Assembly: GCA_036925085.1 (NCBI GenBank)
Contig: JAUPFP010000054.1
Span: forward strand, 806,001-870,000
DNA length: 64,000 nt
Reading direction: 5' to 3'
DNA from: Brachycybe producta
Taxonomy: Eukaryota; Arthropoda; Diplopoda; Playtdesmida; Andrognathidae
Below the pieces are notes generated by a model, which saw nothing but the letters and a program-made list of their open reading frames with translations, was not told where the DNA came from and ran no database searches. This document shows, one piece after another, positions 25,068-62,052 of the stretch; position 1 is the stretch's first letter, and each line of letters starts with the position of its first letter. The translations under genes were made by a program, and so were the position numbers.

Positions 25068-26516
25068 GTTTATTGAAGAATTTTGATGTTTCTTGAAAGA
25101 AATACTCTTGTCGACGGTAAGGTTTCATTTTACATTCCATCATTTATATTTTGTGCGCATATACATCCGGTGCTTTTTTATTATTTAAGGTGGGTTTTCA
25201 AACAGTTGATAATCAAATTGTCATTATTCTTTATTTTTAAAAAAACAACATTACGATGGAATTGAACACGTTTTAGATACTAGAATAGTAACTGAATCTC
25301 TTAGAGATCTTCTTTTCTTTCATATGTTTTAAAATATGCTTTTTATAGAGTAGAAATAAAAAAAAATCGCCTTCTATCAATCTATTAACTGCCATAAAAA
25401 GCTTATTTTAAAAGATAACATTTGATCTAACCCTTCTAGTTTTTAAAAACACTTTCAATTTCGACTTTTATCTAGTTTTAAAGTCTAAACGCTCTTCGAA
25501 CTCTGGTTAATTGTCTTTCAGAAGAGCAAAATGAAGAGAAATTTGAAAGTGTTTTAGAAACTAGAAGGGTAACTCAATCACTAAAAAGTATCTTTAAAAT
25601 TAAGCTTTTTATGATTAAATAAGGTTATTTTGAAATTAGTTCAACATGAAAATGTGTTCTTAAGATTCTAAAACATTTTGTGCTTTTTAAAAGCTACATA
25701 AGTTGAAAGCGTTTTAGAAACTAGAAGGGTAGCTCAATCACTTAAAAGGTATTTTAATGTTGTGATATTTTAAAATAAGCTTTTTACGATTTTAATCGAA
25801 AGGCGATATTTTTGTATGCAAAAAGTTTATTTTTAAGTATTTTGAACAATTTCTCCTCGTATAAAAAAGTTTATTTCGAAAGATATTAACATGAAAATAT
25901 CACTGTGAATCATTCAGCTTCCCCTTCTAGTTTCTAAAACACTTTAAATTTCTCCTTTGCGTTGCTCTTCTGAAATTGCAGAATAACAATAAGAATTCGA
26001 AAAAAATCATCCGTTCACGAAACATCTTAAAAGTCGTTTGATCAGAATAATGAGAAATTGATTATCGTTTACGCTTTTTAAGTTAATTGCGAAGACTCAA
26101 GAATCATTTGCATAATCGTTTTTAATCGAATTACGGGGGAAAAAAGATGAGATTTCAAAAGTTAAAAAGGTGCACAGACAAAAGAGAAATAAGTGAAAAT
26201 ACATAAGTTGCGGAAAGTCGAAGAATCACACTGTTTTTTTGCAATTCTCGAAAAAGAAAACTGTTGTTCCGAATTTTGATAACAATTTTTTACGCCCTTC
26301 GTAAAAAGACATGATAAAAGTATAACTCGTGGCAGCAGAAAAAACGACTAATTTTTCGTTGTATAAAAATCAACTTTTAAGATTTTTTCGTTTGTAAAAG
26401 AAATTCGAATGTAAGCAGCTTTTAAAATGTATAATTGTAAAGATTTAAGAAAAATAAGACAAAATTTGGCATTAGAAATCGGCTCCGTGTTGAATTTGAA
26501 TTGTGGGTCATTTGAT
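25068..26516. other. Spacer between converging BCKDK and GLOD4
   Basis: The two genes converge here. Three family A copies or fragments follow each other at about 25250-25460, 25470-25670 and 25680-26000, so roughly half the spacer is repeat. The remaining 500 bp up to the GLOD4 stop are featureless AT-rich sequence. No gene is visible. Confidence 0.6.
25250..26000. repeat. Three family A MITEs in a row
   Basis: GAAACTAGAAGGGTAACTCA at about 25556 and GAAACTAGAAGGGTAGCTCA at about 25716 head two copies. Right-end motifs (CCCTTCTAGTTT) occur near 25431 and 25921. The middle copy is shortened. Confidence 0.7.
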
Positions 26517-40359: not shown

Positions 40360-43300
40360 TCATTCATTGTCGTTGTCTTTCAGTATTCCAAGATTCCGTC
40401 CAATTTGTTTGCACTTTGCGGTCACTTCCTCCTGAACTAAATTGAAGGACATTGCGATGATGGCCAATCCGAGAATGAGATAAAAGCAACATATAATCAA
40501 TTTGGCCTGTCCACTTTCAGATTTGGCATCCAGAAGTGAAGTTCCCGGAACGAGATCACCAAAACCAATGGTGCTCAATGTTATGAAACAGAAATAGGCT
40601 CCATTTAGGAAGGTCCATTCTTCCCAGGTTGAAAAAATAGTGGCTCCCACGCAGATATAAAAGGAAACGAATCCCAATACCATTGAAATTGGTACTCTTT
40701 CTTGTCTCGTACCATTACCATTACCGATCCCGTTAAGATTATTCCCTCTTCCATCTCGTATCCTTTCCATGTTAACACTTTCAACTTGGACACTATCAAA
40801 ATGAATAGGTCCGTGTGCAGTAGTGGTCAAGTGGTGAGTGGTCGCTGTGGGTGGTTGTAGGAGTGCGGTTGTGGCCGAAATGGGAGGAGAATGGTCTTTG
40901 GTCAGTAGTGGACTTTGTGGCAGAAGGACCAATTTGGTGGTCGATTTTGTTTCGGACCCTTCGGCAATGATGTCAATGGATGCAATTGGAGCCTTACGAA
41001 GTGGACCTGGTGATGAGGAATGCGGCCCCGCAGTGACCACAGATGCCGGTTTGACGTGTGTGTGGGCCACATACTTGACGGCTCCGTCGCACTGTTGAAT
41101 TGCTTTGGCAGGTGTCAGATACTTTCGTTTGTCGCGACACAAGACACAACACAGGTTTGAATAGGCGAATTTAAAGGCGTGAGCCAATAGGTCACCTATG
41201 TTGGTCAAGCAAAGTAACATTAGGGGAATTCCGAACAATGCATAGAAAATGGTGACCACTTTTCCAGAGGCTGTTTTTGGTGCTATGTTGCCATATCCTA
41301 AGAAACAAATAGAAGAAAAAAAAAACACCATGAACCAGATTGACCATCGGTCAAGTGTTCAATACTAGGCCTATATAATGATGCAACAAGTTGCTTTGTA
41401 TTGGTTAGAAGACAGGCATTTAGAAATCGGGAAGAACTTCAGTTGGCTCCGCCCTTTTTATGTCGACGAATTGGTTTGTTGTGTGGTTTGACGTTGAAAA
41501 GGGCGGAGCATGTGACGTCAGACTACATAACCAACCAATTGGAAGTTGTTTTCGTCATAACAAGGGCGGAGCCAACTGAAGTTCTTCCCGATTTTTAAAT
41601 GCCTGTGGTTAGAAGCTGTTAAAAACTAGACTAGTAACTGAATGACTTGAAAGTTCTATCATGATGATGTTATTATTGATATATTTTAAAATAAACTTTT
41701 ATTGCAATTTTTAAATGAAAAATGGGAACGTTTTTTCGACCAAATTAAGTGAATAGTTTTCAAACTGCCATAAAATAATTATGATTAGTTAGAAACAATT
41801 ATTATAAAATTTAAAGTCTGTTAGAAACTAGAATACTAATTTACTAAATGAAGAAAACTTAACGATTTTTAATGAATAAAATAAGTATCTTTCAAAATAA
41901 ACTTTTTATCGCAGTTTGAGAACCTAACCGAACCTTGAAAGTGAAAAAAAAAAATTTTTTTAAATTGTTATAAAAGTTTTATATTTAATTTCTTGAAGTT
42001 GCTTCTTGAAATAAAGTAATAACCAAAGTTGAGCAACTAACTAGTTGCTTACTTTTGATTGCATTTTTATTGTTTCTTGATTGGTTGATTGTCCTCCCCC
42101 CCCCCCCTCTTTTTGCAAACCCATTAAATTTAATGGTTAATATTAAGATGGAAGAATAAGATGAAAAATATTGATAAAAATGAGGCTAATAAATGTGAAG
42201 TGACCAAAGCAATGTTATTTTTAGTAGGTCAGTGGGGGGAAAAAACGTCTTGTGGGCATTCAGATGTTGCATCTTGTGGGCATTCAATGTTAAATTGTAA
42301 CCAGAAATGAGCTTTTTTTTCTTTAGATATAATAAAAATGGATTTCGGAAGTAATAAAAAAAAGCCCCAGAAAAAAATCATTGCAAGAAATTGCATGCAA
42401 ATAAAAAGAATATTAGGTCCAAATTGAGTTCCAAAAAAAAAAAATAACCTTGAAATTTGAAGTACCCCTTCAAACATCCTAATTTTGAATACTTTTCAAG
42501 TGTAACTTCAAGTGACAAGGGTTTTCCGATTGAATACTTAGGTGAACATTCAAGAATGACACTTTTAGCACTTGATTTTCAAATTGTTTTTTTACGGAAA
42601 GAAATGATACGTCGATGTTTAAACCTTGTTTAGAGGGTTCAAGTGTCAAAGTTTCTTTTTTAGAATTTACTTCTAAAACAGTTTAACTTTTTTTTGTTTA
42701 ATTTTGAACGTTGCCATAGCAACAAAATGTGAAGTTTTATTAATTATTATTAATTAAATAACTTTGCAAATACTCAGTACAGACAGTTATCACTTGATTA
42801 AAAGGAAGGGGGAGGAGGGAATATATATATTGCATGTTGCGTGAAATAATTTCGCATCAGAGGGAATGAAAATAAAAAAAAAACTAGAAAAAAAGTTGCG
42901 TGCTAGAAATGCCTTTTATAATATATTATTTGGTGTTTGCAGTGATTGCCTTCTTTCGGGAGGAGGAGGGGTGGCCCTATTTCTCATTCTATTTGTCGAT
43001 TGTAATATTGCGAGGGGAACCTTGATATTTTTTTTAAAAAAAAATGTAATTTGTGAGTCTTTTCTTAGTCATATCTCCTTGGTCTTGACCTATACAATAG
43101 ACACAGACAATAGACTCGTGTTGTCAAGTGGAATGGAAAAGTACGTGGTGGTAAATATTTTTGCAATTCATTTGGTGTTAAATCAACCAGTGAGAAAACG
43201 GCGAATAAATTTGTTCTCTTCTTTGTTTTTATCTCCAGCTGATCGTCGTCATTTTATTTTGGAATGTGAGATAGAAATTACTGTTTGTCTGGTAACTGTG

Positions 43301-46300
43301 GCGTCAACATTGAAATTGAGTAAAAAAAAAATGAAAAGAAAATCTACTTTTTAAAGTATGTTTTTAGACATTTCAAGAGAGAGGGTGATGTAAAAATGAC
43401 TTGAATGAAAAAGAGGGGAATTTCGAGTAAAGTGAAGATTTTGAATAAACACACAAGAGAGAGAGAGGGTGGACGAAATTTGGTCAAAAAATAATCAAAA
43501 TTTGTGTTTAAATGCCCTGAAAAGATCTCCTTAGATCATCATCTGGTCTGGGATGTCTCAAAAAAACATCCTAAAACTGGAAAGATAGGAACATCTTTCG
43601 ATTCTGGCTTTCAGGTGCAAAATAAAGAAAAAAACTTGAATGTCTTTTAGAAACTAGAAGGGTAGCTCTCAATCACTTACGGCTATTTTCATGTTTTTGA
43701 TATCTTTCAAAATAAAAAATTAATGAGAAAAATTGGAAAATATTGTTAGGTTTAATTGGGTCATTTTGGATCTGACATAAAAAGTTTATTTTGAACGATA
43801 TCAAACATGAAAATAGGCTCTTACGTGATTGAGCTACAATTCTAGTTTCTAAAACGCATTCAAGTTGTTTTCATTATTTTGCATTTTGAAAGCCAGAATA
43901 ATCAGAGTTTGCGAAGCCCCGTTTACACTTAAATTTTTTTTCAAAATTCTAAAATGAAAAAATGAGACCTTTTTTTTTCAAAAAAAAAATGGCCGAAAAA
44001 AAATGAACTGCTTTAAAATATCGTAAAAATGTGTCAGGAATGACTCGACTGTTCCTGAGAGTCACAAAAAGCTTCAAAAAGTACAAAGATTTAAACATTT
44101 TTAAAATCCGAAAAAATTGTGGAAAAATTAAAAACTTATGTTTTTTTTCTAAAAAAAAATCGACTAAAAAATGAAATGCTCTTTTTAGAGCATTCTTAAA
44201 TGGCTCAGGAGGGGCTTAATTGGCCCCAGAAGTATGAAAAAAAGCTTCATAAAAATACAAAGATTCAAGAATTTCGAAAATTCTGATTTTTCTGTGTGTT
44301 TTATTTGTTCTTTGTAAGTTTGTGTGTTTTTTTTTGTAGATTTTCACGGAGAAGAAGAATTTATTTGGCACTTAGTTTCAAGATGACTTGTTTCCTTTTC
44401 GTTCCTTTCAAGCGAATTTGATTTATGATAAAGTTGAGTGTCATATAAAAAAGGGTGTTACACAGTGACTGTCATTAGGAGAAAATAAAACTTAACAAAA
44501 AAAAAGCAATTTGCTAAGAAAACGCTGAAACACGTACACGACTTACACGAAAACACACGGAAACACCGTACGCTAACAAGCACACACGACACACGAAATT
44601 TCAGGAACAGAATTAAGAGAATCTAGAAAGTGTTTTAGAAACTAGAAGGGTAGTTGCTCAATCACGTTCATGTTGATATTTTTCATATTAAACATTTTAT
44701 AGACAATTAAAAAAGTATCGTCCTGTTTAATGTTTGAGGTAATTTTTAAACTCAAAAAGTTTTTATTTTGAAAGATATCAACATGAAAATACTAGTTATA
44801 CCTTATACACACACACATGAGTTAAGTGAATTGAAATTAAATGTGTTTATAGGTGAATTATACGGAATCCAGTTAAGGACATATGAACCAAATAAAAATT
44901 GACTTTAATTATTAATATTTTAAATTGAAATAGTAAATCAATATTTTGTCAATGGTTTATATATTTAAGTATTGATTTCATTATTTTCAGATTATTAACT
45001 GAATTAAATTGAATTCGACATATTGTTTGTTTGTCTTTCATGGGGCTCCGTAGAACACGTTTATTATTTAAATGCATTTAAATTATTAGGTGTGTGTACT
45101 AGGTATTACAGACCGGGTATATTTTATACCTAGTACACACACCTGATAATTTAAATGCATTTAAATAATAAACGTGTTCTACAGAGCCCTCTGTGAAGGG
45201 CAAACAAACAATATGTCGTCCAATTCAATTTATTCAGTTAGTATAATCTGAAAATATTGAGTTAATACTTAAATATCTAAACTATTGACAAAATATTGAT
45301 TTAGTATTTCAATTTAAAATATTAATAATTAAAAGTCAGTTTTTATTTGGGGTTTATGTGTCCTTAACTGGATTCCGTATAATTCACCTATAAACACATT
45401 TAATTTGAATTCATTTAACTCATGTGTGTGTACAAGGTATTATCTACAATTGAGCTAAAATACATTCAAGTTAAATATGTTTTATTGATTTATACGGAGT
45501 CCAGTTAAGGACGTGACAAAACAGAATAAAATTGACGTTATTAAAAAATCTGAACAAATTGAAATATTAAATTAATATTTAATTGCACGAACCCCTTTTT
45601 TAAGTAATTAGTATTTTAAATGCACTTAAAAATACCACCTTAAAATTGGTAAAAATTTAATTGAAAGAGTTTGAATTAAAGAAAGAAAGGTTACAATAAA
45701 TAATAATCGGTTTTTGATCGATCACCTACATATTTGACCTAAAACGATACATTGCATTTTACGTCAAATAATGATGGTGTTATTTTTTTTTCTTCGTCTC
45801 ACCTGACGCCATAACAAAGAAGAATGAAAAAAGTAACATTAAAAACAACAAAAAGATATCATTAATGTTTCTCTTTCCCTCCGACGACCTTAACTTAACG
45901 TGTAATTTATTGGTTGCAAACAATTTCGACCCCAATTTGTGATTCTGACAAAAAAAAGCAAACTTTTTCAGGCCATTGAACAAACGTTTATTGATACCAT
46001 TATTATTAGGGTTCGGATTTTTATGCAATATCAAGTAAATGTTTCTCAATTTATGGCTTCAAAGGGCCAATTGTGAAGTAATCATCATTATAGTGCAACT
46101 GCAATTAGACTTTTTCTAATAATAATAGAAAGGTTGGTTGGAGGCTAGAAGTCTGGTTACTATCAGTTTTCAATTTCTAGCCTTTAACCAGTGGTTTTGG
46201 TTTAAAAACATTAAATTGTTGGTTGATCTAAACTGGATTGTTATTCCACAATTGGCCTTTGAGCCACAGATTGAGGAAACACTTTTCTTGATATTGCATA

Positions 46301-49300
46301 AAAATCCGAGCCCTAGTAATCATTTATTTAGCCTCTACACTGTGTGTTATGCTGCGTTTATTCATGATGCATTAAAAATTTGAATATAAATCTGTAAGGA
46401 AGACATCATGTCTACTATAAACACGGCATCATCAGTTGTGTCTTCAGAATTGTGATGTGTCAGTGATTTTTCTTTCTGATGAAATTTATTGGAAGCAATG
46501 TGTTTAGTGTCATTCAGAGTGACACACTCAATGTGGTCGTCCTCCTACCCTCCTCCTACTTATCGCACTTTTTATTTAATATATCAAGACACTTTCCCTG
46601 AAAATATGAAATAAATATTGGAGTAAACATATTTCAAACGGAGTTTAGAGAGTGAAAGAGAGAGAAAAAAAAGGACCCACAATTTGACAATTTGGCAAAA
46701 TTCCACATCACCATTAAATGGTTAGGGCCCTAAACTGTAATATATCAAGAGTCACCAAAGAATTTCTTTTTAGTATAAAAAAATGCAAATAAATCACTAT
46801 CCTAATATTATTTGCATATAAATACGAGTTGCACAAACTCCATATGGAGTTTTTAGAAGGGGGTTTAATGGGGGAGGGTGTTGTTGCAAGTGACTCACTC
46901 ACTCTCGGGAAGGACCAGATATGAAATAAAAATTCCTCCATTAAAAAAGGGGCAAACATTGAGCCTAATTCTAGGAACCACCCATGAAAATAACCCATCT
47001 GGATCATTCATAATATAATATTATCTAATTTGTTATTAATGAGGAATTTCATCCTATTTTTTTTTCCTATTTCTAATTCTGTTTGTTTGCATTTCTTTCT
47101 CAGTTTATTGTTTTAATGACTTCTATCTCTCTTTTTTTCTTCCTAATTTTATAATACAAGGTGGGTTCAAAAATAAATCTTTCAACAATTTATGAGACAC
47201 TCTGTAATGTCTCTTGTAGGGCTCGGATTTTTATCAAACAAAAAACGCTGGTTAGAGGCTAGAACTCTTAATTGCTAGTACACAGGCATCTAGCCTCAGA
47301 CCAGCCTTTCTGATTAGAAAAAAAATACATTAATTGTAATTACTCTAATGCAATGCTTTGAATCCATAATTGGCATTTGGGCCACAAGTTGAGAAACATT
47401 TGTTTGATATTGCATAAAAATCCGAGCAATAATGATTACTATTTTTAGTAGTTTTATTGAACCTTAACTCAAGCTGGAGAGAGGAATCAGAACAACATTA
47501 TGATAAAATACAAATTGTCTAAAAACTAGAACCGTGCACGAACGTGGCTATCCACCCATGGTGGCGCTGAATAAGCGCCAAATTTTTTTAGTTTATTCAG
47601 TTTTGATGTTTTAATTCAAGTTAGACGCTTTTATCAAATTTTTACGCTTGATAATCAAGCGTAATTGTTGCAAAATGATTGATTTTACACTTTTCGTGAC
47701 TTGTGTGCAAACATTGGATGACACTTAACTATGAGAAGATGTGTCTTATGTTGATTGATGCCATTGAGACTAAAATAGAAAACACATTTCTATATTTTTT
47801 CTTTTCAGAGAAAATTATTTCATCACATTTTTAAAACTTGTGTAGAAAAAAAAATATGCTTTTTGATTTTTATTTAAAAGTTGTCTATATTTTCTTTAGT
47901 GTAAACAAGTTTAAAAACTTAAGTGATAACAAAATGAAAAGTGAAATTCGCAAAAAAAAAATACAAGTTGTGTGTTTTTTTTTTGTACAAATTCGCAAAA
48001 ATTTCACCTCCATTTGGGTATTTTTTTTTCTCAGAATTTGAAATAAGCGAATCTTTGTTAAATATTTTGAAAGATGAAATCAATGAATAGAAAAAAGAAA
48101 GATTCATATTTTTGTAAATTATTTTAATTCTATTTTTGGAATTTGTTTTGCTTTTGATAAAAAACCAGACTCTTCTTTTATATTCTTATCTTTCAACTTG
48201 TGTGATTTCGAGCATGAAATCAAAAAGTTAGCAAACTGTTTTTGTTTTCTTCAGAAAAATGGTAACAGTTTCGGAAACAGGAAGTTGAATTTAACCCTCC
48301 CTGGGAAATACAAATAGGAGGGGCCTCCATTGTCTCCATGTATAACATAAAAACACAAAACAGTTCTCTGTCGCACAGATCACTGTATTTTGGCGAAATT
48401 CTTTAGGTGAAATGGTTTAGAAGAAAAATCTTTAGATGAAAATTACTTTAGGCAAAATATATATTTTAGGCGAAATTGTTTAGGTGGAATGGTTTAGAAG
48501 AAAATTTTTTAGATGAAAATTACTTTAGGCAAAATATATATTTTAGGCGAAATTGTTTAGGTGGAATGGTTTATAAGAAAAATCTTTAGATGAAAATTAC
48601 TTTAGGCAAAATATATTTTAGGTGAATTTATGTGAAATAGTTTAGGGAAAAATGTTTAGGTGAAAAACGTTTGGAGTGAAATGTACTTTAGGTGAAAACA
48701 ATTTTAGATGAAAATGTATTAGAAGAACTTCCTTTAGGTGTATTGTCATTTAGGTGAAAAAACATTTAAGAGTGTTTGGTTTAGGTGAACTGTCTTTTAG
48801 GTGAATAACTTGTAGGTGAAGTGTCTTGATACATATCACTCTAATGTTTTTGGTGGCCGAATAGATATTTATTTTGTCTTTGTCTCCCAGATGGCGCCAA
48901 TGCAGTGGCTTATTATGTTCTATTGGAGTTCTCTTCTCCCCACTATCAGTTTTTGAGAAAATTTATGTTTTCGCAAAGTTTCTCCTGAAAAACGGTTTTT
49001 CAGGAGAAACTTTGCGAAAACAATTCAAAGTGTTTTAAAAACTAGAATAGTTAGTGATAATGCTAAAAGTTTTTTTCATGATGAAATCTTTCAAAATAAA
49101 CTTTTTATGACAGTTTGAAGAAAATGAAAAAATTCTAAAAACGGGTTATTTTCAAACTGAATTATAAAATTGTTTATTTTTGAAGACATTGATTTGATTT
49201 AATCTTTCAAAACTAGAATGACTAAATCAAGTTCGAGGAAGCTCAGTTTACATTTTAAAACCAACTCAAAGTTTGTTCTAAAATATAGACAATAATTCAT

Positions 49301-50634
49301 TTTACTAAATTCTAATTTATAAGAAACTAATACCTTGTACTCACACACATGAGTTAAATGACTTCAAATTAAATGTGTTTATAGATGAATTATACGGAAT
49401 CCAGTTAAGGACACATGAACACCAAATAAAAACTGACTTTAATTATTAATACTTTAAATTGAAATAGTAAATCAATATTTTATATTTAAGTATTAACTCA
49501 ATATTTTGAGATTATTAACTGAATAAATTGAATTCGAAGACATATTGTTTGTTTGTCCTTCACAGGGCTCTGTAGAACACGTTTATCATTTAAATGCATT
49601 TAAATTATCAGGTGTGTGTGTACTAGGTATTAGATTTGTCTATTCTTAAAAGTTACTTCTAAAATATTTAAATTTATGTAAAATGTGAGGTTTGATGGGT
49701 CCCTAATTTGGCCCCTTATTTAGGGGGGGGGTTCACTTTTTGGTGTAATTTTCGCCCTGAAAAAAATCCATAAATTGTCACTAGATAACAGTAAATGAGC
49801 TGTTGACCCATAAAGTGATTCTAATCTAACACAAAGCAAACAACACACCGGGAAAAATATGAGACCCTGACTGAGACAAAAAAGAGGGAAGGGGGGGGGC
49901 CTTATATATTTTTTGGTTGTTTGTTTGTTTGTTTATTGTTCAAAATGTTACTTTCAGTGAAATTGACAATTTGGTTTCTTTGACGTCATTAGTGTCGATC
50001 GACGCATGCGTAATAACTTATCTCACTTTTTTTATCCCTGGCTAAAATGCCATATTTTAATTAACCCATTGTAAATATATACATGTATATTATGAGAGAT
50101 GAAATTTTGCAACAAAAAAGAAAAATACTAGAATGTACTTTTTTTTTTGAAAACTCACAGAGCTGAGTTTTTAAATGCTCTTCATTAATTGAATTATATT
50201 CAGACTGTATATAAATTAAATGTAGTTTGTTAATGGAGGTAAAGGGTTGTGAGCCTGTTTTCTACTTTATCCTTAAAACATTAAATGAAGAGATAGATAG
50301 ATAGAGAGAGAAATACTAGAAGAGCCTCTCTCAACTCCCCCCCCCCCCTAAAAAAACCTTAATGAATTTGTATTTATTTTCTGTTTTTCCGGTTGCAAAA
50401 TGCTTTAATTAGGAGTTTTGCATTTTGGTTGAGTTTAGGGATTGTTTTCAGATGTAAAAATGAAGGTCGGAAAATATTTGCAATGATGATGATGATGATG
50501 ATGATGGTTGAGGAGGAGGAGGGGGTGTTTATGGGAATAGTAAACGGGTTTTCGTAATTTTTGGGCGTTATTATAGATGTTCTTATTTTGCGTCTGTGTT
50601 TACATTCTTAATAATAATAATAATAATAATAATA

Positions 50635-50686
<52 letters not shown>

Positions 50687-51400
50687 TTATTATTATTGTT
50701 ATTGTTGTTATTCGTTAGTTGTCTGGTTTCTTTCTGTTTTTAGTGTGTCTGAAGTTGCACCTTTTTGTTGGAAGATGAAGACATAAACTTTTTTGTTTTC
50801 TAAATCTGGTTCAAGGTTTTTTTTTAGCTTTAAGATTAAAACAAGTTTTAATTTTTCAGAGGATTAAATAGATATACATTTTTTTTAGGAAAAACAGCTT
50901 AAGTTTTTTTTTATTGGACATAAAAGAAACTTTTAAGGGAAAATTTTAAAGTTTATTTAGAATTAGAAGCAAGAAGCGTAAAAGAAATTAGATGATGATA
51001 TTTTCAAAAAATACAACTAAAGTTTCTTTATTTTTCTAGTTTTACAGAAGAAAATTGCTTCTAAAAAGCTAAAGATTAAAAAAAAGGCTGATATTAAAAA
51101 AAATATCGCCATTAAAACACAAGAAATATTTCTTTACTCTTCTAGTTTTACAAAAAAAATTGCTTTTTTTATAAAAAAAAAATTCCTTTAAAAAGATAAG
51201 GATCAATAAAAAGTTTATTATAAAACATATTGTCTTTAAAATACAACTAAAATTCCTTTATGTTTCTAGTTTTAAAAAGTAAATTCCTTCTAAAAAGCTA
51301 ATATTAAAAAATGTCGTCATTAAAATACAACAAATATTTCTTTGCTCTTCTAGTTTTTTGTGTTTAAAAAGTTGCTTCTAGAAAGCTAAAGATGAATCTC

Positions 51401-51481
<81 letters not shown>

Positions 51482-51651
51482 GCCAAAATTTAATAATTAT
51501 TATATATATAATATCCCAGGTCTGTGTGTGTGTGTGTGGAGTAACAAAAACCATTGAAGCACGTCGGAATTTATATAAATTTGAATAAATGAACCGTTTT
51601 TTTTCTCAAGGTCAATTATATGTTGAACTCTTCCTTTGGAAAGTGTAGAAG

Positions 51652-51691
<40 letters not shown>

Positions 51692-54600
51692 TGGGAGGGG
51701 GTGACTGAAATTGAAATGAAAGGAGTAAAAAAGGAAAAAACGACGCGCATGCGCACAATTGACTGTGAATTTGCTCCCGTCATTTATGAAGGGTTACCCC
51801 ACTAGTAATATTAATAATAAAAAAAAGTTGGAAGGTGTTTTGTGTGATCGCCATCGGTCAGGGGCAACACATGTTCATTAAATTTATTTAGATTAGGTTA
51901 GGCAACAATTGGCTCGCGAGATGAGTCGTCTTTACAAAGAATGGCTCATTCGAACATACAGGTTGGATACTCACAAACCTATAATATTGCAATACGTTTT
52001 ATGAGCTAACGTCAATCCTAAATAGTAAATAATAAAACATTGGATGATGAAAAATATAATCATGGAAAACCATTATTATTATCTAATAGTTTTATAGTTT
52101 TAGTAAATAAAGAGTGCGAACAAACACGAACAAGGTTACGATTAGGAAAACACACACACATTTTATAAGCAGCCATTTGCAAAATATGCAAATTAAGGAA
52201 TTCTGCAGTTTCAGAAGCAACATTCAGACCAGAAATTGAAAGTGTTTTAGAAACTAGAATCACTTAAAAATAAAAAATAAAAATTCCATGATTATATATT
52301 TCAAAATAAACTTTTTTTATGATAATTTCAAATTTTACATTTTTTGTTTTTCACTTCAATTTGGACCAAAATGCAAATTAAAATCATTGTCATAAAAAGT
52401 TTATTTTAAAATATAAGAACAGGAAAATTTCTTTCAAGATGCTCATTTTTACTCTTCTAGTTTTCGAAACACTTTCAATTTCTTGTTATTGAAAGTGTTT
52501 TAAAAACTGGAAGAGTAAAGAAATCATTTAAGGTTACTCTTCTAGTTTGTAAAACACTTGTTGACTCTTTTACAATTTTTGTTTTTAACTTTTTAACTTA
52601 AAAAACACAACCGGCAGAAATTCCGGCCATATTTTAAAGACAAAACAAAACTTAAAACAAAGTTAAGCTTAAAAAAGTCTCTACAGACTTGCTGTAGAAA
52701 AGGTTGTCAAAGTTCTGTTTTAAGCTTAGCTTTATTTTAAGCAACGTTTTAAGGTACGTTTCCACTTAAGACTCATCATGAGTCTGTTTATAAATGAGTT
52801 TGCAAATATTTACAGATCTGTGTGTACAAGTGGAAACGATGCTTTTTAACACACGCAGTCATCAAGATCAGATTTGATTTTGTTTGACTTAGTTTCAATT
52901 TCCGAACTATTTATAGTACAATTGAAATGAAATATTTGCAATTTACTTGTTTCAAAAATAGCCTCATTAAAATGTGAGGGTTTTTTTTTTAAACTTTTGC
53001 AAAAAGGCTTTTAAGAACTTTTTTTTTTTTTGGTCTGTCTTCCTGTTTGAGATTATATTACAAAAAAAATTGTCTGTCACAGATTGAAAGAAATTGAATA
53101 AGAAATATGATCATTTTTTCTATATTTAATATTATAAACTTTGAACAAGTAGAACAAAAAATTAGAAAACATGAAATTCCATTTTATATATTTATTTTAA
53201 TGGTTTTTTTTTAGAAAAATAAAATTGTGTTGGTCAAATTATTCGAACTGTTTTTTTAAGAAAATTTAACAAGAAGACGAAAATTGTGCAAAATGGAATT
53301 GATAGTAAAATTTGCAAAAAAAAAAGCACCACTTATTTGATTGAATTTATAAGAACAACAGTCTGAAAACTCAATTCACTTCTTTCAGAATTTTCTTTAT
53401 TCTAAAGTTTTGCAAGAAAATTAGGCCCAAATTCAAGAAGGAAACTTAACACTCGAACCCTCTAACCGTGTTTTTGAATGCCTAATACCTAGTACACACA
53501 CCTGATAATTTAAATGTATTTAAATAATAAACGTGTTCTACAGAGCCCCGTGAAGGACAAACAAACAATATGTCGTCCAATTCAATTTTTTCAGTTAATT
53601 AATCTGAAAATATTGAGTTAATACTTAAATATAATATATTGACATTAAAATATTGATTTAGTATTTCAATTTAAAATATTAATAATTAAAGTCAATTTTT
53701 ATTTGGTGTTCATGTCCTTATCTGGATTCCGTATAATTGAACTAAACACATTTAATTAGAATTCATTTAACTCATGCGTGTGTACAACGTATAAGGAGGT
53801 TTTAAAGCTGTAAACGCCTCGCGAGTTCTTGATTATTTTTTTCTTTCAGGAACAAAATTAGGAAGTGTTTAAAAAAACTAGAATGGTAAATCAATCGGTT
53901 AAGAGTATTTTTAAGTAAATATTTTTCAAAATAAGCTTTTTATAGACAAAAATTTAAATAACTATTGCCTGTTTAAAATTAGATCATTTTCAAACTGACA
54001 TAAAAAGCTTATTTTGAAAGATATCAAAGATGCAAAATACCTCTTAAGTGATTGAGCTACCCTTCTAGCTTCTAAAACACATTCAAGTTTCTTTTCATTT
54101 TGCTCCTGAAAGACAGATGATAACTAGAGTAATAACTTGTGTGTACACACACATGAGTTAAATGAATTCAAATTAAATGTGGTTTAAGTGTGAATTATAC
54201 GGAATCCAGTTAAGGACATGAACACCAAATAAAAATTGACTTTAATTATTAATATTTTAAAATTGAAATACTAAATCAATATTTTATATATTTAAGTATT
54301 AATTTCATTATTTTCAGATTATTAACTGAATATATTGAATTCGACATTATTGTTTGTTTGTCCTTCGCGGGGCTCTGTAGAACACATTTATTTAATTGCA
54401 TTTAAATTATGAGGTGTGTGTGTATTAGGTATTAAGAGAAGTGTTTATAGCCTTAAAAAGCCTAAAAAAAGCCTAAAAAATAGCCTAAAAAAAGTCTTGA
54501 AAATACTAAAGGCTTTTTTTTGCAGAAATTTGCATTTAAGATTTTTCTTTTATCTTCTTTACTTTGAAAACGAAAAATATCCATCTGTTAGGATTTTTTC

Positions 54601-57142
54601 TTTCTCATTTTTCTAAACATAGAAAACCTTACAAGTTTCTTTTATTTTGAAACATCTTTCTCTCTTTGGATTGTTACCAGGTTATTTTCTCTCTCTCTCC
54701 CTTTCTATCTTTCTTTCTATCTCTCTCTCTCTGTTCCTTTCTATCTCTCAATGTTTGTTACTTTTAAAAGTTTGTTACAAATATATTTTTTCCTATGACA
54801 TGTCTTGTTGTCTGTTTTAGTTTTGGTCTTCGAACTCTCTTTTCTTCCTTCTCTTATTATTTTTTTTTTGTAACTCTCAAGTGACACCACAAAAAAAGCT
54901 CAAAGATAACTAAAATTAACTTTTAAGAGAGTTAAGTGACAACTTTCTTAAGGAAGAAACACACAAGTGAATAAAATCCCACTGAATTTCATTCTGTAAA
55001 ACATATTTCATAGAAATATTCTGATTTTGTTTTTTCAGCATGTGTGATTCTTCCCTTATACTTATTCTCCCTTTATACAGAAACTAACGCAGCTTCTGTT
55101 TTTCAGGTGCAAAATTTACGAAAAGCTTGAAAATGTTTTAGAAACTAGAAGTGCAATTCAATCACTTAAGGCTGTTTTAATTTCAACTGATATCTGATTC
55201 AAATTCAACTTTTGATGTCGGGTTGTAAATGACAAAACTTTTAAATAGACTATTTAATTTTTGACTTTAAAAAGTTTATTTTGAAAGATCTCAATATGAA
55301 AATATTATTTTATAAGTGATTTGATTTACTATTCTAGTTTCTAAAACACTTTTTAGTGTTTCTCGATGTTTAAAGTAAAAAAACAAACTTTAAAGTTTCA
55401 AAAGTTGCTTGGAAAAATGAGTGTGGGTCACCAGGATGAGTTTTTGTTCCTTGGGCCCATTTTGAGGCCCGATTTTGAGCCCTCTCTGGGCCTCTTTCTC
55501 TAGTTTCTTATTTGTCCAAGGTCTATAGTGCAGTATGTCACATGGTCAAGCTTAATGAGAGCTTGACCAAATAGCCCAACATCAATTATTGTTGGGTTTT
55601 CTCAGTTGGTCAGTGTGAGAATTGAAATTATTATTTGTTTGTTTGTTTAGTAAAAAAAAACCCTTAAAACCCTGTGTTTTGTGACCCCCATAGAATAATA
55701 ATTTCAAGAGGGAATTGAAATGGGACATTTGTGTTAGTGAAAGACACAGAAATGCACTTCTGACAATTGTGGAACCCCCCCCAAAAAAAAACATTTGATT
55801 GTATTTTCCCCTCCAAAAAGTGGTCCATAAACGGGTGTCCAGTCAGGTTTTGCAGACCACAATTTACTCAATTGTGCACCCAATTAACTAAGTAAAATTA
55901 GGAAAATGTGAAAAATGCAAAAAACAAATGTGATTAAAATGCATAAAAGGAATTAAAAGTTTAAAACTTTAAGGCGGTTTTAATGGTGTAAACGGGGGGG
56001 GGGGAATTCTTTGATTATTCTTGTCTTTCAGATGCAAATTATAAAGAAACTTGAAAGTGATTTAGAAACTAGAAGGGTAGTTCAACTTCACATTTGATAT
56101 ATCTTTCAAAATAAGCTTTTTGTGTGTCAGTTTGTAAATCATCCAACTTTAAGCAGATGATATTTTTTAATTTTTTATAAAAAGTTTATTTTGAAAGATA
56201 TCAACATGAATAAATATCTTTAAGTGATTTAATTACTCTTCTAGTTTGTAAAACAGTTTAATTTCTCTTAATTTTGCTTTTTTTTTAAAAACAGAATACG
56301 TTTTAGAAGAGTAACGCACTTTGGAGAAATTGAAAATGTTAGAAACTAGAAAGGTATCATCTTTCTTTAAGCTTTATTTTCATGTTGATATCTTTTAAAA
56401 TAAGCTTTTTTATTCTAATTATTTTATAATTATATAAGTGATTTAGTTACCCTTCTAGTTTCTAAAACACTTTTACATCAAATAACGTTTACACTTTAAA
56501 ACCATCTTAAAATTTTTTTTTCCAAGTAAAATTCGGTTAAATAAGGTGAAAATGCACAAAGGAAACTTTGCACTTGAACCCTCTAAACAGGGTTCCAACT
56601 TTTATTTTAGGATCCTCAAAATAATCTATGTTGGAATACTGTTTAGAGAGTTGAAGTTGAAGTGCATCTCAGGCTTCAAAGCCAAGAGATGACTTTGGTG
56701 TGACCTTTTCTACTCTCTTACCAATGGTGGTGATGACAGTGACGGAATAAAGTAAAGCTCCCGAAAATGACCACTGCAAATCGGTCGTATTATTGTCTTT
56801 GCCGTCGTAGCCCTTGTTCTTAAAGGCATTGAGCACATCTTGTTCGTACTCCCTTAAAATATTTTCCATAGCAATTGTCCAATTATTTTCATAAAGGACA
56901 TTAAATTCAAGTGTCTTTGCCCACATGTCATTTAAGCATGTTTTGCGAACTTTGACCACCTCTGCACGTTGTTCAATTTCATTCTGAGCCTCGAGGGCCT
57001 CGAAAGTGAGGGCTCCGATTAACGCATAACCAACGACTAAACTGCAAAGTCCGACGTGAGAAAAAAGATGAGCGAGAAAAATACGTATGTACTGCCGACA
57101 CTTTTTCGGCGTGCATCGTATATTTCTCTCCGTCTGAGACAT
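40360..57142 (-). CDS. Two-pore-domain potassium channel (K2P/TWIK family)
   Basis: K2P channels carry background potassium currents as dimers of subunits with four membrane helices and two pore loops. Two coding exons, 57142-56722 and 41297-40360, join to 452 residues. M1 is SHVGLCSLVVGYALIGALTF; an extracellular cap follows with possible glycosylation sites (NWT, NNT). The first filter TTIGYGN lies at about residues 138-144 and the second, STIGFGD, at about 382-388. The intron is phase 1 and splits the first Gly codon of GYG, a position I recall as conserved among animal K2P genes. The M2-M3 loop is unusually long (roughly residues 190-340) and rich in Ser, Thr, Pro and Asn. That layout recalls TRESK (KCNK18), but invertebrate TWK channels also vary here, so no subfamily symbol is given. 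Confidence 0.93.
41412..41606. repeat. Family B foldback MITE with 9-bp target duplication
   Basis: The ends ACAGGCATTTAGAAATCGGG and CCCGATTTTTAAATGCCTGT are inverses, and pairing continues through CTTCAGTTGGCTCCGCCCTT. Flanking direct repeats GGTTAGAAG are at 41403-41411 and 41607-41615. The interior carries GGGCGGAGC and GTGACGTCAG. Confidence 0.9.
41615..42030. repeat. Family A MITE fragments
   Basis: Two left-arm motifs (AAAAACTAGACTAGTAACTG at about 41621 and GTTAGAAACTAGAATACTAA at about 41820) with inner AAAATAAACTTTTTATCGCA. Right arms are poorly preserved. Confidence 0.5.
43590..43935. repeat. Family A MITE
   Basis: TTAGAAACTAGAAGGGTAGC at about 43647 pairs with GAGCTACAATTCTAGTTTCT near 43830. 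The outer CTTTCAGGTGCAAAATAAAG pairs with TTTTGAAAGCCAGAATAA. Confidence 0.8.
44610..44800. repeat. Family A MITE, right end interrupted by family C
   Basis: The left arm GTGTTTTAGAAACTAGAAGG is at about 44630 and the inner inverse AAAGATATCAACATGAAAAT at about 44772. The expected right terminus is missing exactly where a family C element begins, which suggests later insertion. Confidence 0.65.
44806..45442. repeat. Two family C elements, inverted pair
   Basis: Copy 1 (about 44806-45115) and copy 2 (about 45126-45442) are inverted relative to each other about a short spacer, making a 0.64 kb imperfect inverted repeat. Shared blocks include TTATACGGAATCCAGTTAAG, AACAAACAATATGTCGTCCA and ATTTAAATGCATTTAAAT. 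A third fragment lies at 45470-45600. Confidence 0.85.
46008..46315. repeat. Family D element
   Basis: Ends AGGGTTCGGATTTTTATGCAA and TTGCATAAAAATCCGAGCCCT are inverses. The inner GTTTCTCAATTTATGGCTTC and GAGCCACAGATTGAGG also pair. The central GGAGGCTAGAAG hairpin matches the other copies. Confidence 0.85.
47217..47428. repeat. Family D element, shorter copy
   Basis: Ends AGGGCTCGGATTTTTATC and GCATAAAAATCCGAGC are inverses, and the GGTTAGAGGCTAGAAC / TCTAGCCTCAGACC hairpin is central. The left sub-terminal GTTTCTCAA block is missing. Confidence 0.75.
48393..48840. repeat. 78-bp tandem repeat decaying to a TTTAGGTGAA array
   Basis: Three units of 77-78 bp start at about 48393, 48471 and 48548. 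Each contains TTTAGGTGGAATGGTTTAGA, TTTAGATGAAAATTACTTTA and GGCAAAATATATATTTTAGG. From about 48630 only the 10-13-bp submotif TTTAGGTGAA continues irregularly, so the long unit probably arose from the short one. Confidence 0.85.
48967..49021. repeat. Perfect 27-bp palindrome with 1-nt loop
   Basis: GTTTTCGCAAAGTTTCTCCT and the rest of the left arm (48967-48993) are exactly inverted at 48995-49021. Such a loopless hairpin is unstable in vivo, so it is recent or a sequencing/assembly artefact. A family A element starts just after it. Confidence 0.85.
49022..49280. repeat. Family A MITE, diverged
   Basis: AGTGTTTTAAAAACTAGAAT at about 49029 and the inner TTTCAAAATAAACTTTTTAT mark the left half. 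The right arm is only weakly recognisable (TTTACATTTTAAAACCAACT near 49245). Confidence 0.55.
49328..49632. repeat. Family C element with intact ends
   Basis: Ends TAATACCTTGTACTCACACA and TGTGTGTGTACTAGGTATTA are imperfect inverses. This is one of the cleanest copies and defines a length of about 305 bp. Confidence 0.85.
50611..50694. repeat. (AAT)n microsatellite
   Basis: About 24 AAT units with one AGT interruption, flowing into ATT units. Confidence 0.95.
51402..51480. repeat. (AAT)n microsatellite
   Basis: About 26 uninterrupted AAT units; the longest simple repeat in the window. Confidence 0.95.
51653..51687. repeat. (AG)n microsatellite
   Basis: About 17 AG units, followed by a short GC-richer stretch with GACGCGCATGCGCAC. 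Confidence 0.95.
52220..52600. repeat. Family A MITE plus extra half copy
   Basis: AAAGTGTTTTAGAAACTAGA at about 52239 pairs with ACTCTTCTAGTTTTCGAAAC near 52450. A second short unit (GAAAGTGTTTTAAAAACTGG to TTCTAGTTTGTAAAACACTT) follows at 52490-52560. Confidence 0.7.
53485..53793. repeat. Family C element
   Basis: Ends TAATACCTAGTACACACACC and GTGTGTACAACGTATAA. The interior blocks match the other copies (AACAAACAATATGTCGTCCA, CTGGATTCCGTATAATT). Confidence 0.85.
53795..54135. repeat. Family A MITE between two family C elements
   Basis: The left end AAGGAGGTTTTAAAGCTGTAA shows the family terminus. The arms are AAAAAACTAGAATGGTAAAT and GAGCTACCCTTCTAGCTTCT. It sits directly between family C copies. 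Confidence 0.8.
54130..54436. repeat. Family C element
   Basis: Opposite orientation to the 53.5 kb copy. It contains AATTATACGGAATCCAGTTA, TTGTTTGTTTGTCCTTCGCG and ends GTGTGTGTGTATTAGGTATTA. Confidence 0.85.
55105..55400. repeat. Family A MITE
   Basis: TGTTTTAGAAACTAGAAGTG and TATTCTAGTTTCTAAAACAC pair; the middle is diverged. Confidence 0.7.
55970..56520. repeat. Two family A MITEs
   Basis: Copy 1 (55970-56310) starts with the outer motif GGCGGTTTTAATGGTGTAAA and has arms TTTAGAAACTAGAAGGGTAG / TTACTCTTCTAGTTTGTAAA. Copy 2 (56330-56520) is shorter and ends with GTTTACACTTTAAAACCATC. Confidence 0.8.
56535..56665. repeat. Family G repeat (AACCCTCTAAAC)
   Basis: TTGAACCCTCTAAACAGGGT pairs with ACTGTTTAGAGAGTTGAAGT. 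Related sequence is at about 42480-42680, 53420-53485 and 60020-60190. It ends just before the K2P exon at 56722. Confidence 0.65.
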
Positions 57143-58739
57143 GGTTTTTTTTTTTCATATCATCATCGTCATCATCGTCATTTTCGTGTTATTTTTGGTG
57201 TCTGCCGCCAGAATGATGCTCACTTCTTGCGGGATGTAAAGTGAAGGAATGCGCGCCTTCTATCTGAGCATCTTTCTTTGACGCACTTTTAGACATTGCA
57301 TGCTTATTATGAATGCGGGCGGGCGGGCGGACGGTGGAGGCTGCCGTGCGGTGGAGAGTGCAGTGAATGACCGAAAACTTTTTACAGTTTTGCTTTTAGT
57401 TTGATAACAAATCATTAGGACTGCTTTTTTAGCTCTTCTACTTTTTTTAAGCCACTCCCCCTGCCTTCTCTTTCTCCTCTCTTTAGCCTAAACATCGACC
57501 AATCAGCAACTGTTATGCATTTTACAAAGATGCGTTTACACTGTCAGAAAAATGTTGAAACTTTCAGTGTTGTCTGTGTGTGTTTACACGCTGTCAACAT
57601 ATTCTCACATAAAATCATAAATCAACTTGAATAATTTACTCTTCAAACAGATCAGTTGGCCTGTAACAAAGGGACTATTTAGTTCAAAACAGCATCTACT
57701 GTACATACTACACTGTATAACAATTTCCCAATTGAAAGTCCTCAATAAATTATGTTTGCCAACAAAAAGTTTATTTTAAAAGATATAGCCAGGCTATAAA
57801 ATTTGACACGTTCATTGTCTATTCTAGTATCTAACAAACTTTCTATTGATTTTTTTTATTCTTCTTCTAGATGCTTCCTAAATGTTTTAAATCAAATTTG
57901 TTTAAAGTATAAACGAGGCCTCTCGAACTCTGATTAGTCAGTCTTCAGGTTCAAAATTAAGAGAAACTTGTATGTGTTTTAAAAACTAGAAGGGTAACTC
58001 AATCACTTAAGGATATTTTCATACTGATATATTTCAAAATAAGCTATTTATGTCAGTTTGAAAATGACAATACTTTAAATGTTTTGTAATTTTTTGGTCT
58101 AGAGAAAAAAAAAACTAGAAGAGTGAAGTTCAATCAATTTTATTAATATTTCTCAAAATCAACTAAAAAGTTTATTTTGAAAAATCTTAACATAAAATTG
58201 ATTGAATTTCCCTTCTAGTTTTTTTTTCGACGCTTGCATAAATGGTTGCAAGTTTAAAATTAGCATGGTTTAATGTGTTAGGGAAGAATCACACACACTG
58301 AAAAATCGCCAGAATTAAAACACTGCATGCAAGATATATGGCGCTTCAGCTAAAATAACCTTACAAAGTGAAATTCAGCGTGTGTTTGTGGGATTCTTCT
58401 ATTGCACACTGTAAACGTACCCTTAAGTAGATTTTTCTTGCAATAATTTTCATTGAATTAAAAGTTGTTTTGGCTTCATTTCAACGTTGTTTATTTTGGA
58501 AACATTTTATAAAAATTGGGTGGTTCCTTTTTTTTTCATCGAGAGATGCAATTTTCAAAGAGTGAAATGATGAAGTAAGTGTTAAAGAAACAATTTGATG
58601 GCGACATCAGTATTTACGACTTGAGAGAGGCTTCAAGAAATAAATTAGAAACGAAAAAAAAAAATTGCGAATTTAAAAAGTGGACGTGAATTTTTTAAAA
58701 GAAATTTTTAGATAAAAAAAAATCAAAAGTTTACTTATA

Positions 58740-59345
58740 AACTAGAATAGTAACTGAATGTGTTAAGGTGGTTTTAAAAGTAAAATACACCCCTTAAACT
58801 TTGGTTGAGCTAAATGAAGAGTATGTTTTAGAAACTAGAAAGGTAGCTCAATCAGTTAAGAGATCGATTGTTTTCATGTTTTTGCTATATTTCAAAATAA
58901 ACTTTTTATGTGAACTTGAAATTTTTTTAATTTTTGTTTGTAAAAAGTTTATTTTGAAATACCTGAAATATCAAAATGGAAATACTCGTAATTGAGCTAC
59001 TCTTTCTAGTTTCTTAAAGAATTTCTAGTTTCTAAAAAAAACTTTTTTGTTTGTAACAAACTTTCTAGTTTCTAAAAAACTTTCTAGTTTCTAATAAACT
59101 TTCTAGTTTCTAATAAACTTTCTAGTTTCTAAAAAAACTTTCTTGTTTCTAAAAAACTTTGGATTTTCTAAAAAAATTTCTAGTTTCTAAAAAAACTTTT
59201 TAGTTTTTAAAAAAATTTGTAGTTTCTAAAAAAAATTTATAATTTCTAAAGAACTTTCTAGTTTCTAAAAAACTTTCTAATTTCTAAAAAAAAACTTTCT
59301 AGTTTCTAAAAAACTTTCGAGTTTCTAAAAAAACTTTCTAGTTTT
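58740..59345. repeat. Family A MITE with tandemly amplified right end
   Basis: The left arm is TATGTTTTAGAAACTAGAAA at about 58822. From about 59008 to 59345 the right-end motif CTTTCTAGTTTCTAAAAAA is repeated roughly 17 times with a period near 20 bp and small variations. Confidence 0.85.
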
Positions 59346-59734
59346 TCTTAATTTTGCTTCCTGAAAGACGGAAGAATAATGAAGAGTTTGAAAATCAGAT
59401 GTTTGTAATGAAACTTAAATGTTTTAAAAATATTTTTTCGAAAAGATATCAACATGAAAATACTATTATGTGATTTAACTACCCTTCTAGTTTCTAACAT
59501 TTTCAATTTCTACTTAGTTCTTAAGTCTGCTGTTCATTGTTAACATCTTAAATGATTTTATCTGCGTGTTTTTTTACTGCACTGTTTCCATGCAATAATA
59601 ATAATACGAGTGAGAGAATTGGTTGACCACTTGACCAAGTCTATTAGCTCAATTGAAGTAGTGGTCAGTTTGGAGAAAATGAAGACAAAACAATGAAATC
59701 GAGTAATAATGACCAATTTTAATTAGTCTTTTTA

Positions 59735-59939
59735 ACAGGCAGTTAGAAATCGGGGAGAACTTCAGTTTACTCCGCCCTTTTTTATGACGACCGGCAACTT
59801 CTAATTGGTTTGTTGTGTGGTTCGACGTTGAAAAGGGTGGAGCATGTGACGTCAGGCTACATAACCAACCAATTAGTAGTTGTGTTCGTTATAACAAGGG
59901 GGAGCCAACTGAAGTTCTCCCCGATTTCTAATTGCCTTT
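59735..59939. repeat. Family B foldback MITE with 9-bp target duplication
   Basis: Flanked by exact direct repeats GTCTTTTTA (59726-59734 and 59940-59948). The ends ACAGGCAGTTAGAAATCGGG and CCCCGATTTCTAATTGCCTTT pair; the interior has GTGGAGCATGTGACGTCAGG. Confidence 0.9.
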
Positions 59940-60480
59940 GTCTTTTTATTGGTTATATATAACTTGTAAAGGTGTTTGTGTTCAATAAAATGGTTTCCTT
60001 CCACACCATAAGTTTCAATTAGGCCCGAATTCAAGAAAGAAAGAAAAAACTTCGCACTTGAACCCTCTGAGCAGGCTTCTAATAAAGAAATACTCCTGTT
60101 TTAATGAAAAGAGTTTTTTCGAATGTTGTGGAACCAAGTTCAGAGGGTTCAAGTGTCAAGTTTATTTCTTGAATCTCTTGAATTAAGTTATATTTATCAA
60201 ATAAATAGAAACTAATGTGAGGAAAACGTTTATTTTGAAGCACTTTGTACAGAAGATATAAATTATATTCTTATTTTGTTTTATTTCGTTAACATTTGTG
60301 TTTCTTTTTGTGGTTCTAATTAGTGTTTGTTTAGTTTGTTTTTATTGTTATTACAACTTTGGAGATCTTTTTTGTTTATTTCGATGCTAAAGTGTTAAAT
60401 GTCGGCCGGGGGGGGGGGGAGAGAGAGAGAATGAGAGGAGAAAAGGACAGTAAAATTAACCCCTGAAGTGGGGCAATCAC

Positions 60481-60686
60481 ACAGGCATTTAGAAATCGGG
60501 ACAAACAGAAGTTGGCTCCGCCCTTTTTATGACGACTGGCAACTTCTAATTGGTTTGTTGTGTGGTTTGACGTTAAAAAGGGCGGAGCATGTGAAGTCAG
60601 ACTACATAACCAACCAATTAGAAGTTGCCGGTCGTCATAAAAAGGGCGGAGACAACTTTTGCTCGTTCCGATTTCTAATTGCCCGT
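60481..60686. repeat. Family B foldback MITE with 9-bp target duplication
   Basis: Direct repeats GGCAATCAC (60472-60480) and GGCAATCAT (60687-60695) differ at one base. AACTTCTAATTGGTTTGTTG and its inverse near 60610, and GGGCGGAG boxes in both arms, match the other copies. Confidence 0.9.
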
Positions 60687-60719
60687 GGCAATCATTCAAT
60701 ATGATGGTTTATTAACAGC

Positions 60720-61140
60720 TGATTCTCAAATTCTTGTTTTAGAAACTAGAAGGGTAGCTCAATCAATTAAGAACATTTTAATATTTAATATCTTTCAAAA
60801 TAAACTTTTTATAAACAAAAATTAAAAAAATATTGGAATATTTTAAGATAGGGTTTTTTTTTACAAGCAGCCAAGATTTCCTGACTCTGATTAATCTATC
60901 TTTTAGCAGTAAAATGAACAGAAACTAGAAAGTGTTTTAGAAACTAGAATTGTATTTTCATGTTGATAAACTTTTTATGTTGTGAGTTTGAAAATGACAA
61001 TGAAGTCATTTTGTCAATAAAGTTTATTTTAAAAAATATCAACATAAAAATACCCTTCTAGTTTCTAAAACACTTTCTAGTCTTTGTTCATTTTCTGTTA
61101 AAAGACAGATTAATCAAGAGTTTAGAAATCAGCTGTTTGT
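60720..61140. repeat. Two family A MITEs
   Basis: GAAACTAGAAGGGTAGCTCA at about 60741 marks a left half; a second, compact copy runs from about 60900 (AGTGTTTTAGAAACTAGAAT) to about 61130 (CCCTTCTAGTTTCTAAAACA at about 61053). Confidence 0.75.
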
Positions 61141-61542
61141 AAAAAAAAAAATCCTAATTTAGTTTAGTTTTATTCTCGATAGATGGCACTAGTGAATGGC
61201 GATAAATAATTTGGCGGGAGATTTCTTTTAGTTTTAGTTTTGTTATCAATAGATGGCGCTAGTGAATGGGGCGAAAGAAATTTGGTACAACGATAAATCA
61301 ACTAAGAGCTCTTCATATGGAACATTTGGTGCCAAAAGTGAGTCTTGCCAATAGAGGGCGCAAACTGTCCGTAGTGCTTCAGTTACTATACGATTACAGG
61401 GTGTACGAGATTCAACAATAATGTCGTCCCCCTTGAATACCAGCTTCAAAAAGCAGACGATTCTTCATTCACTCTTTGCATTTTGTTCTAACATGGAGTT
61501 GCTTTACCTCTGTATATTAAATATCTTGAAGCAGCTTAAATC

Positions 61543-61753
61543 ACAGACATTTAGAATTCGGGAAGAACTTCAGTTGGCTCCGCCCTTGTTATGACGAGCG
61601 TCACCGACAACTTCTAATTGGTTTATTGTGTGGTTCGACGTTGAAAAGGGCGGAGCATGTGACGTCAGATTACATAACCAACAAATTAGAAGTTGCGTTC
61701 GTCATAACAAGGGCGGAACCAACTGAAGTTTTTCCCGATTTCTAAATGCCTGT
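61543..61753. repeat. Family B foldback MITE
   Basis: Ends ACAGACATTTAGAATTCGGG and CCCGATTTCTAAATGCCTGT. The flanks CTTAAATC and CTTAATTC are a decayed target duplication. The interior holds GGGCGGAGCATGTGACGTCA. Confidence 0.88.
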
Positions 61754-62052
61754 CTTAATTCTAGTTTCATTTTGTTGCCGATAGATGGCAGTAGTAAATG
61801 GCGCCAAATGTCTTGGCGGGAGATTATTACTTCCTGATAATTAAAATCTATTATGTCATAAATCAGTTTAATTACAGGTGTGTTTGTTTGTATTTTTTTC
61901 TTAGGTGTGGTTTTCATTCATTGGCAAGGTCGCCTTCTATTGAGTTTCATCATTAATTACTTCTTTAGCATTTTATATTCGGCGTTATTTTTTCTCTCTC
62001 TCTCTCTTGTCAACGGAGTGTTGCTTATTGAATTGAATTATAATAGGGAACA

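Follow-up and report, generated by a model that had tools for sequence, protein, structure and literature searches.

A near-palindromic, high-copy miniature inverted-repeat transposable element family with 9- and 8-bp target duplications in Brachycybe producta

Four copies of the element and their surroundings

A 64,000-nucleotide stretch of the Brachycybe producta genome (contig JAUPFP010000054.1, positions 806,001 to 870,000; G000:C54:806001-870000 in our numbering; hereafter the window) contains four copies of a near-palindromic, hairpin-shaped miniature inverted-repeat transposable element (MITE) of about 205 bp that ends in ACAGGCATTTAGAAATCGGG and occurs in thousands of copies across the genome. 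The family is new, but this type of element is well known. Allowing up to three mismatches, the end has eight matches in the window that form four inverted pairs, compared with a mean of 0.00 in 100 shuffles, and the pairs begin at 41412, 59735, 60481 and 61543, exactly where the initial annotation had placed them. Copy 1 (41412..41606, 195 bp) is defined by its paired ends, its folding and the exact duplication GGTTAGAAG on its left (41403..41411) and right (41607..41615). Copy 2 (59735..59939, 205 bp) has paired ends and is flanked by GTCTTTTTA at 59726..59734 and 59940..59948. Copy 3 (60481..60686, 206 bp), recognised by paired ends and folding and with an arm identity of 67/76, lies between GGCAATCAC (60472..60480) and GGCAATCAT (60687..60695), which differ at one base. 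All these duplications, read on the plus strand as are those of copy 4, agree with the initial annotation, including the GGCAATCAC/T mismatch; the elements themselves carry no strand. Copy 4 (61543..61753, 211 bp; paired ends, inverted repeat) had been described as decayed, but it is not simply so: its flanks CTTAAATC (61535..61542) and CTTAATTC (61754..61761) are an 8-bp duplication in which one base differs.

The fold-back structure ascribed to these copies was confirmed for copies 1 and 3. Folded as single-stranded DNA, copy 1 reached -75 kcal/mol (z -18.3) and copy 3 -77.8 kcal/mol (z -16.8), and 0 of 200 shuffles equalled either value. Folding was computed for these two; copies 2 and 4 were recovered in an inverted-repeat scan as the inverted repeats I7 and I17. 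Gaps aside, copies 1 to 4 differ from the family consensus at 13/195, 19/204, 13/205 and 16/205 positions, respectively. Scanning the window against Rfam and for tRNAs gave no match.

On either side of copy 1 is a minus-strand exon. The exon at 40360-41331 matches the ion-channel model PF07885 (E 1.1e-28), and we take its domain to be of the K2P kind. The weaker exon at 56669-57154 matches the same model below the Pfam cut-off (E 0.0015, 18.8 vs 22.5 bits). Copy 1 is intronic if the two channel-type exons are parts of a single gene. The other three copies are located between exon 56669-57154 and a plus-strand exon with a Pfam match to the EF-hand (62929-63147), and the two genes flanking them appear to be divergently transcribed. 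These three copies had been placed upstream of a rhomboid gene. Only the EF-hand exon was confirmed there; a rhomboid domain was not found in the exon candidates scanned, and Pfam gave no match for the candidate exon that follows (63439-63732).

Consensus and copy number

The searched genome comprises 295.3 Mb in 442 contigs (C numbers below; L numbers denote loci outside the window). A COX1 probe matched C442, probably the mitochondrial contig, where three TGA codons fall within the reading frame. From loci and window we collected 63 distinct copies in which both ends had at most five mismatches and lay 40-260 bp apart. Truncated copies such as L020 1392-1520, L027, L037 5042-5168, L041 and L047 7307-7384 are not part of this collection, and L012, whose 9-bp duplication is exact, is likewise outside the counts. 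All loci beyond the window were picked via an exact end, which biases the sample, and with it the divergence values, towards young copies. Ten of the 63 copies share one site within a second repeat, presumably hAT-like, and their removal leaves a final set of 53 non-nested copies. Two pairs in this set, L025/L026 and two rows of L010, have flanks in common and are only partly independent; they were kept.

The core allowed 57 of the 63 copies to be oriented, and these yielded a consensus of 205 bp from which they diverge by a median of 6.4%. Two nearly perfect inverted repeats of about 76 bp, each ending in ACAGGCATTTAGAAATCGGG, enclose a core that is asymmetric and about 50 bp long. Lengths of the 53 non-nested copies range from 73 to 216 bp with a mode of 205, and L010, L029, L030 and L050 hold copies shortened to 73-142 bp by internal deletion. 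The element is short, has inverted ends, precise boundaries with a duplication and a high copy number at near-uniform length, all of which characterise MITEs; judged by its length alone, it is without coding capacity. The label 'foldback' used in the initial annotation describes the shape well. Still, we regard the family as a palindromic MITE and not as a Foldback (FB) element in the strict sense, because a tandem-repeat array was not found in the arms. None was found within copies 2-4, and scanning copies 1 and 3 for direct repeats revealed only scattered pairs without tandem arrangement, among them AAGGGCGGAGC, which occurs twice in copy 1 at a distance of 63 bp.

The genome-wide search with the 20-bp end that had been proposed for this family returned 8077 forward and 8072 reverse matches with up to two mismatches, and 0 for a control pattern. 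The end variant ACAGGCAATTAGAAATCGGG has 2096 + 2199 exact matches. At two ends each, these figures would correspond to about 8,000 elements and, at about 205 bp per element, to roughly 0.6% of the genome.

Target-site duplications

Among the 53 non-nested copies, exact duplications were found in 16 cases at 9 bp and in three at 8 bp, and duplications with one mismatch in six cases at 9 bp and in four at 8 bp. A duplication is thus recognisable in 29/53 copies, with 22 of 9 bp and seven of 8 bp. When flanks of different copies were paired as a control (n=2756), 0 exact 9-mers and two exact 8-mers arose, and with the boundary moved one, two or three bases to the left or right exact 9-mers were present in 0/53 copies. 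Counting the flanking duplications by length, as had been suggested, gave 9 bp as the prevailing length; some duplications are of 8 bp, and 24/53 copies have either none or one with two mismatches. The sequences of 16 target sites show a weak symmetric tendency only and are too few for a claim about target preference.

These lengths bear on two well-known superfamilies. hAT elements produce a fixed 8-bp duplication, and a purely 8-bp reading was dropped since 22/29 recognisable duplications are of 9 bp. Tc1/mariner elements duplicate the 2-bp target TA, and they were dropped as well since the duplications observed here are of 9 or 8 bp and vary in sequence.

An empty site in a hAT-like repeat

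The ten nested copies (L017, L018, L021, L028, L029, L033, L036, L037, L039 and L050) are all inserted at the same site, GTATAAAGC, of a second repeat family with the reading frame ..CDVERTFSKYK.., which is presumably hAT-like. Genome-wide, with up to two mismatches in 30 bases, the filled left junction is found at 90 places and the MITE-free junction at three. At each of the three MITE-free places the 9-mer GTATAAAGC is present once, intact in two and with one base changed in the third. L053, an exact empty copy and the only one that was read, aligns at 86-90% with the flanks of five filled copies on both sides, and the nine bases occur in it once. This comparison of empty and filled sites directly fixes both boundaries of the MITE as well as its 9-bp duplication.

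Around 90 copies at one site have most simply been copied along with the host repeat. We infer a single landing in the hAT-like repeat, after which the MITE was multiplied as a passenger. The raw copy count therefore overstates the number of transposition events of the MITE itself. Besides this nested set, copies at L021-L024 and at L025/L026 were also multiplied together with their surroundings. This multiplication is the one argument for a reading without any transposon, in which palindromes recur by replication slippage or one locus was spread by segmental duplication. Against it stand 9-bp duplications that differ between unrelated sites, the exactness of the boundaries and the empty site. 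The empty site led us to reject segmental duplication as a whole explanation, and we consider this reading extremely improbable.

The mobilising transposase

With boundaries, duplication, copy number and an empty/filled pair all observed directly, the data are probably best explained by a high-copy palindromic MITE that is inserted at 9- or 8-bp staggered cuts by a Mutator-like transposase acting in trans. The element would have spread by cut-and-paste insertion with target cuts staggered by 9 bp and sometimes by 8 bp, and its ends would be recognised by the transposase of a Mutator-like element (MULE) of the Phantom/Muta1 type. The initial annotation had read the 9-bp duplications as pointing to Mutator-like or Merlin-type transposition rather than hAT or Tc1. 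The latter two indeed do not fit, and of the former two Mutator-like is favoured. The assignment to the Mutator-like superfamily, which we hold to be the likelier one, is drawn from the 9-bp mode with its minor 8-bp class and from the long arms, since the 9/8-bp mixture matches Muta1 and long arms fit. MULEs are described with duplications of 8-11 bp and typically long inverted ends (PMC6446971), and the MITE has duplications of mostly 9 and sometimes 8 bp and terminal inverted repeats of about 76 bp. The genome also contains MULE-type coding sequence, with six matches to a MULE-type probe at five places, one of which belongs to a low-copy family of about 1.7 kb.

A close parallel by description is Muta1, a Phantom-group MULE of Aedes aegypti whose reinsertion in yeast gave duplications of 8 or 9 bp (PMC5225508). 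Both systems share the mixture of 9- and 8-bp duplications, inverted ends and many non-autonomous copies, a likeness that concerns these descriptions and not the end sequences. They differ in that more than 300 derivatives are given for Muta1 compared with about 8,000 copies of our MITE, to which no transposase has been linked. The Tm1 Mutator/Foldback family of Meloidogyne is described as having mostly 9-bp (8-10) duplications and MITE-like members (PMC3169594). Its Tm1-ML elements resemble the MITE in being short, in their inverted repeats and in the mostly 9-bp duplications of their family. However, Tm1 is described with asymmetric 7-bp end motifs and tandem units of about 14 bp, whereas the MITE has symmetric ends and lacks tandem units, and Tm1-ML has 30 copies compared with about 8,000 here.

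Several observations speak against this explanation. As stated, 24/53 copies have no duplication or one with two mismatches. Content of MULEs and Merlin elements in this genome is known from probes only. An element combining the MITE ends with a transposase was not found among the candidates read, and because of this the superfamily is only inferred. In about 363 kb of partly overlapping sequence, a search for pairs of ACAGG..CCTGT that lie 50-9000 bp apart and have an exact duplication of 8-10 bp returned elements of at most 210 bp and a single longer pairing (380 bp), which extends across a local duplication in L010. Two candidate partners were rejected. L051:1241-2962 belongs to a low-copy MULE-like repeat family of about 1.7 kb with relatives on C18, C3 and C274 (40 of 2469 candidates scored); two of the relatives contain stops. 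A T-rich run bounds this repeat on one side, and no ACAGG ends were present at the alignment boundaries of the family, the reason for discarding it. L052:729-2810 is a single-copy open frame of 694 amino acids with matches to MULE, ZSWIM-type RNaseH-like and ALS2CR8 domains. As a single-copy MULE/ZSWIM-like gene it was not accepted as the autonomous partner; it looks like a transposase-derived host gene.

The same MITE could instead be moved by a Merlin transposase (IS1595/IS1016-type), which according to PMC8101967 also makes duplications of 8 or 9 bp. Merlin ends are described there as carrying a conserved terminal 5'-GG, whereas the MITE, with its boundary fixed by the duplications, begins with ACAGG and lacks it. 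A single Merlin-type (IS1595) DDE probe, run without a positive control, had 0 matches in the genome. Taken together, we consider Merlin clearly unlikely. Another or a so far undescribed cut-and-paste transposase that makes 9- and 8-bp duplications would be compatible with our failure to find a transposase between MITE ends and with an ACAGG terminus that we could match to no named family, a statement made without comparison to repeat databases. There are no positive pointers to another superfamily, and the combination of 8-11 bp duplications and long inverted ends is typical of MULEs (PMC6446971), so that this alternative seems rather unlikely, and a Mutator-like transposase is preferred.

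By itself, the MITE is an ordinary transposable-element family. Our analysis documents thousands of short elements with 9- and 8-bp duplications, adds the proof of an empty site, and provides a case of a MITE that was apparently multiplied within a different repeat. Should the partner turn out to be a MULE transposase, about 8,000 marked insertions would constitute a large data set on the target choice of MULEs.

Motif content

The regulatory-motif content of the MITE makes the question of an effect on gene control testable. The core of the consensus holds TGACGTCA, intact in 36/57 copies. CCAAT, in either direction, is present in both consensus arms (in 50/57 and 49/57 copies), and the consensus contains three GGGCGG/CCGCCC boxes. 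A 29-base core with intact palindrome occurs at 3,724 places in the genome (1869 + 1855). The palindrome TGACGTCA resembles a cyclic-AMP response element (CRE).

TGACGTCA is found 19 times in the window compared with 0.69 expected, and 16 times compared with 0.68 after masking the four elements. Its places include 3749, 3891, 20698, 20864, 21947, 21988, 28788, 30264, 30426 and 49981. The contexts mostly differ, and 20698/20864 and 30264/30426 are two pairs of another inverted repeat. In L031-L050 it occurs 11 times compared with 1.76 expected, with 8/11 in L035 alone, and by over-representation it does not rank in the top eight palindromes of these loci. As it is over-represented outside the MITE too, the motif is not peculiar to this element.

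From these motifs it is conceivable that the MITE is a ready-made regulatory cassette (CRE-like TGACGTCA, CCAAT and GGGCGG-type boxes) that was spread genome-wide in thousands of copies, the three in the spacer between the channel-type and EF-hand (rhomboid-like) genes among them, and in part kept as regulatory elements. Such a role would fit the window because of the strong over-representation of TGACGTCA outside the MITE; we regard it as very unlikely.

Related and neighbouring repeat families

The end sequence of the MITE, searched as three strings, was not found in the literature searched and no described match was recognised; repeat databases were outside this search, and the family may be catalogued under a name. 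Within the genome, a second MITE family with the end ACAGGCATCTGTAGACAGCTTCAGAA and a length of about 193 bp was found at L004:2199-2391, L031:4079-4272 and L051:1-158, with 1362 + 1337 end matches genome-wide at up to three mismatches. It shares with the ACAGGCATTTAGAAATCGGG family the first eight bases, inner modules resembling GGCTCCGCCCTTTTATGA and AACAAACCAATTAGAA and the palindromic structure, but its end diverges from base 9 on. One of the two complete copies examined has an exact 8-bp duplication. A further inverted-repeat family, also common and with arms resembling TTTTAGAAACTAGAAGGGTA, is represented in the window at 25516-25975, 43616-43883, 60911-61094 and 63152-63407.

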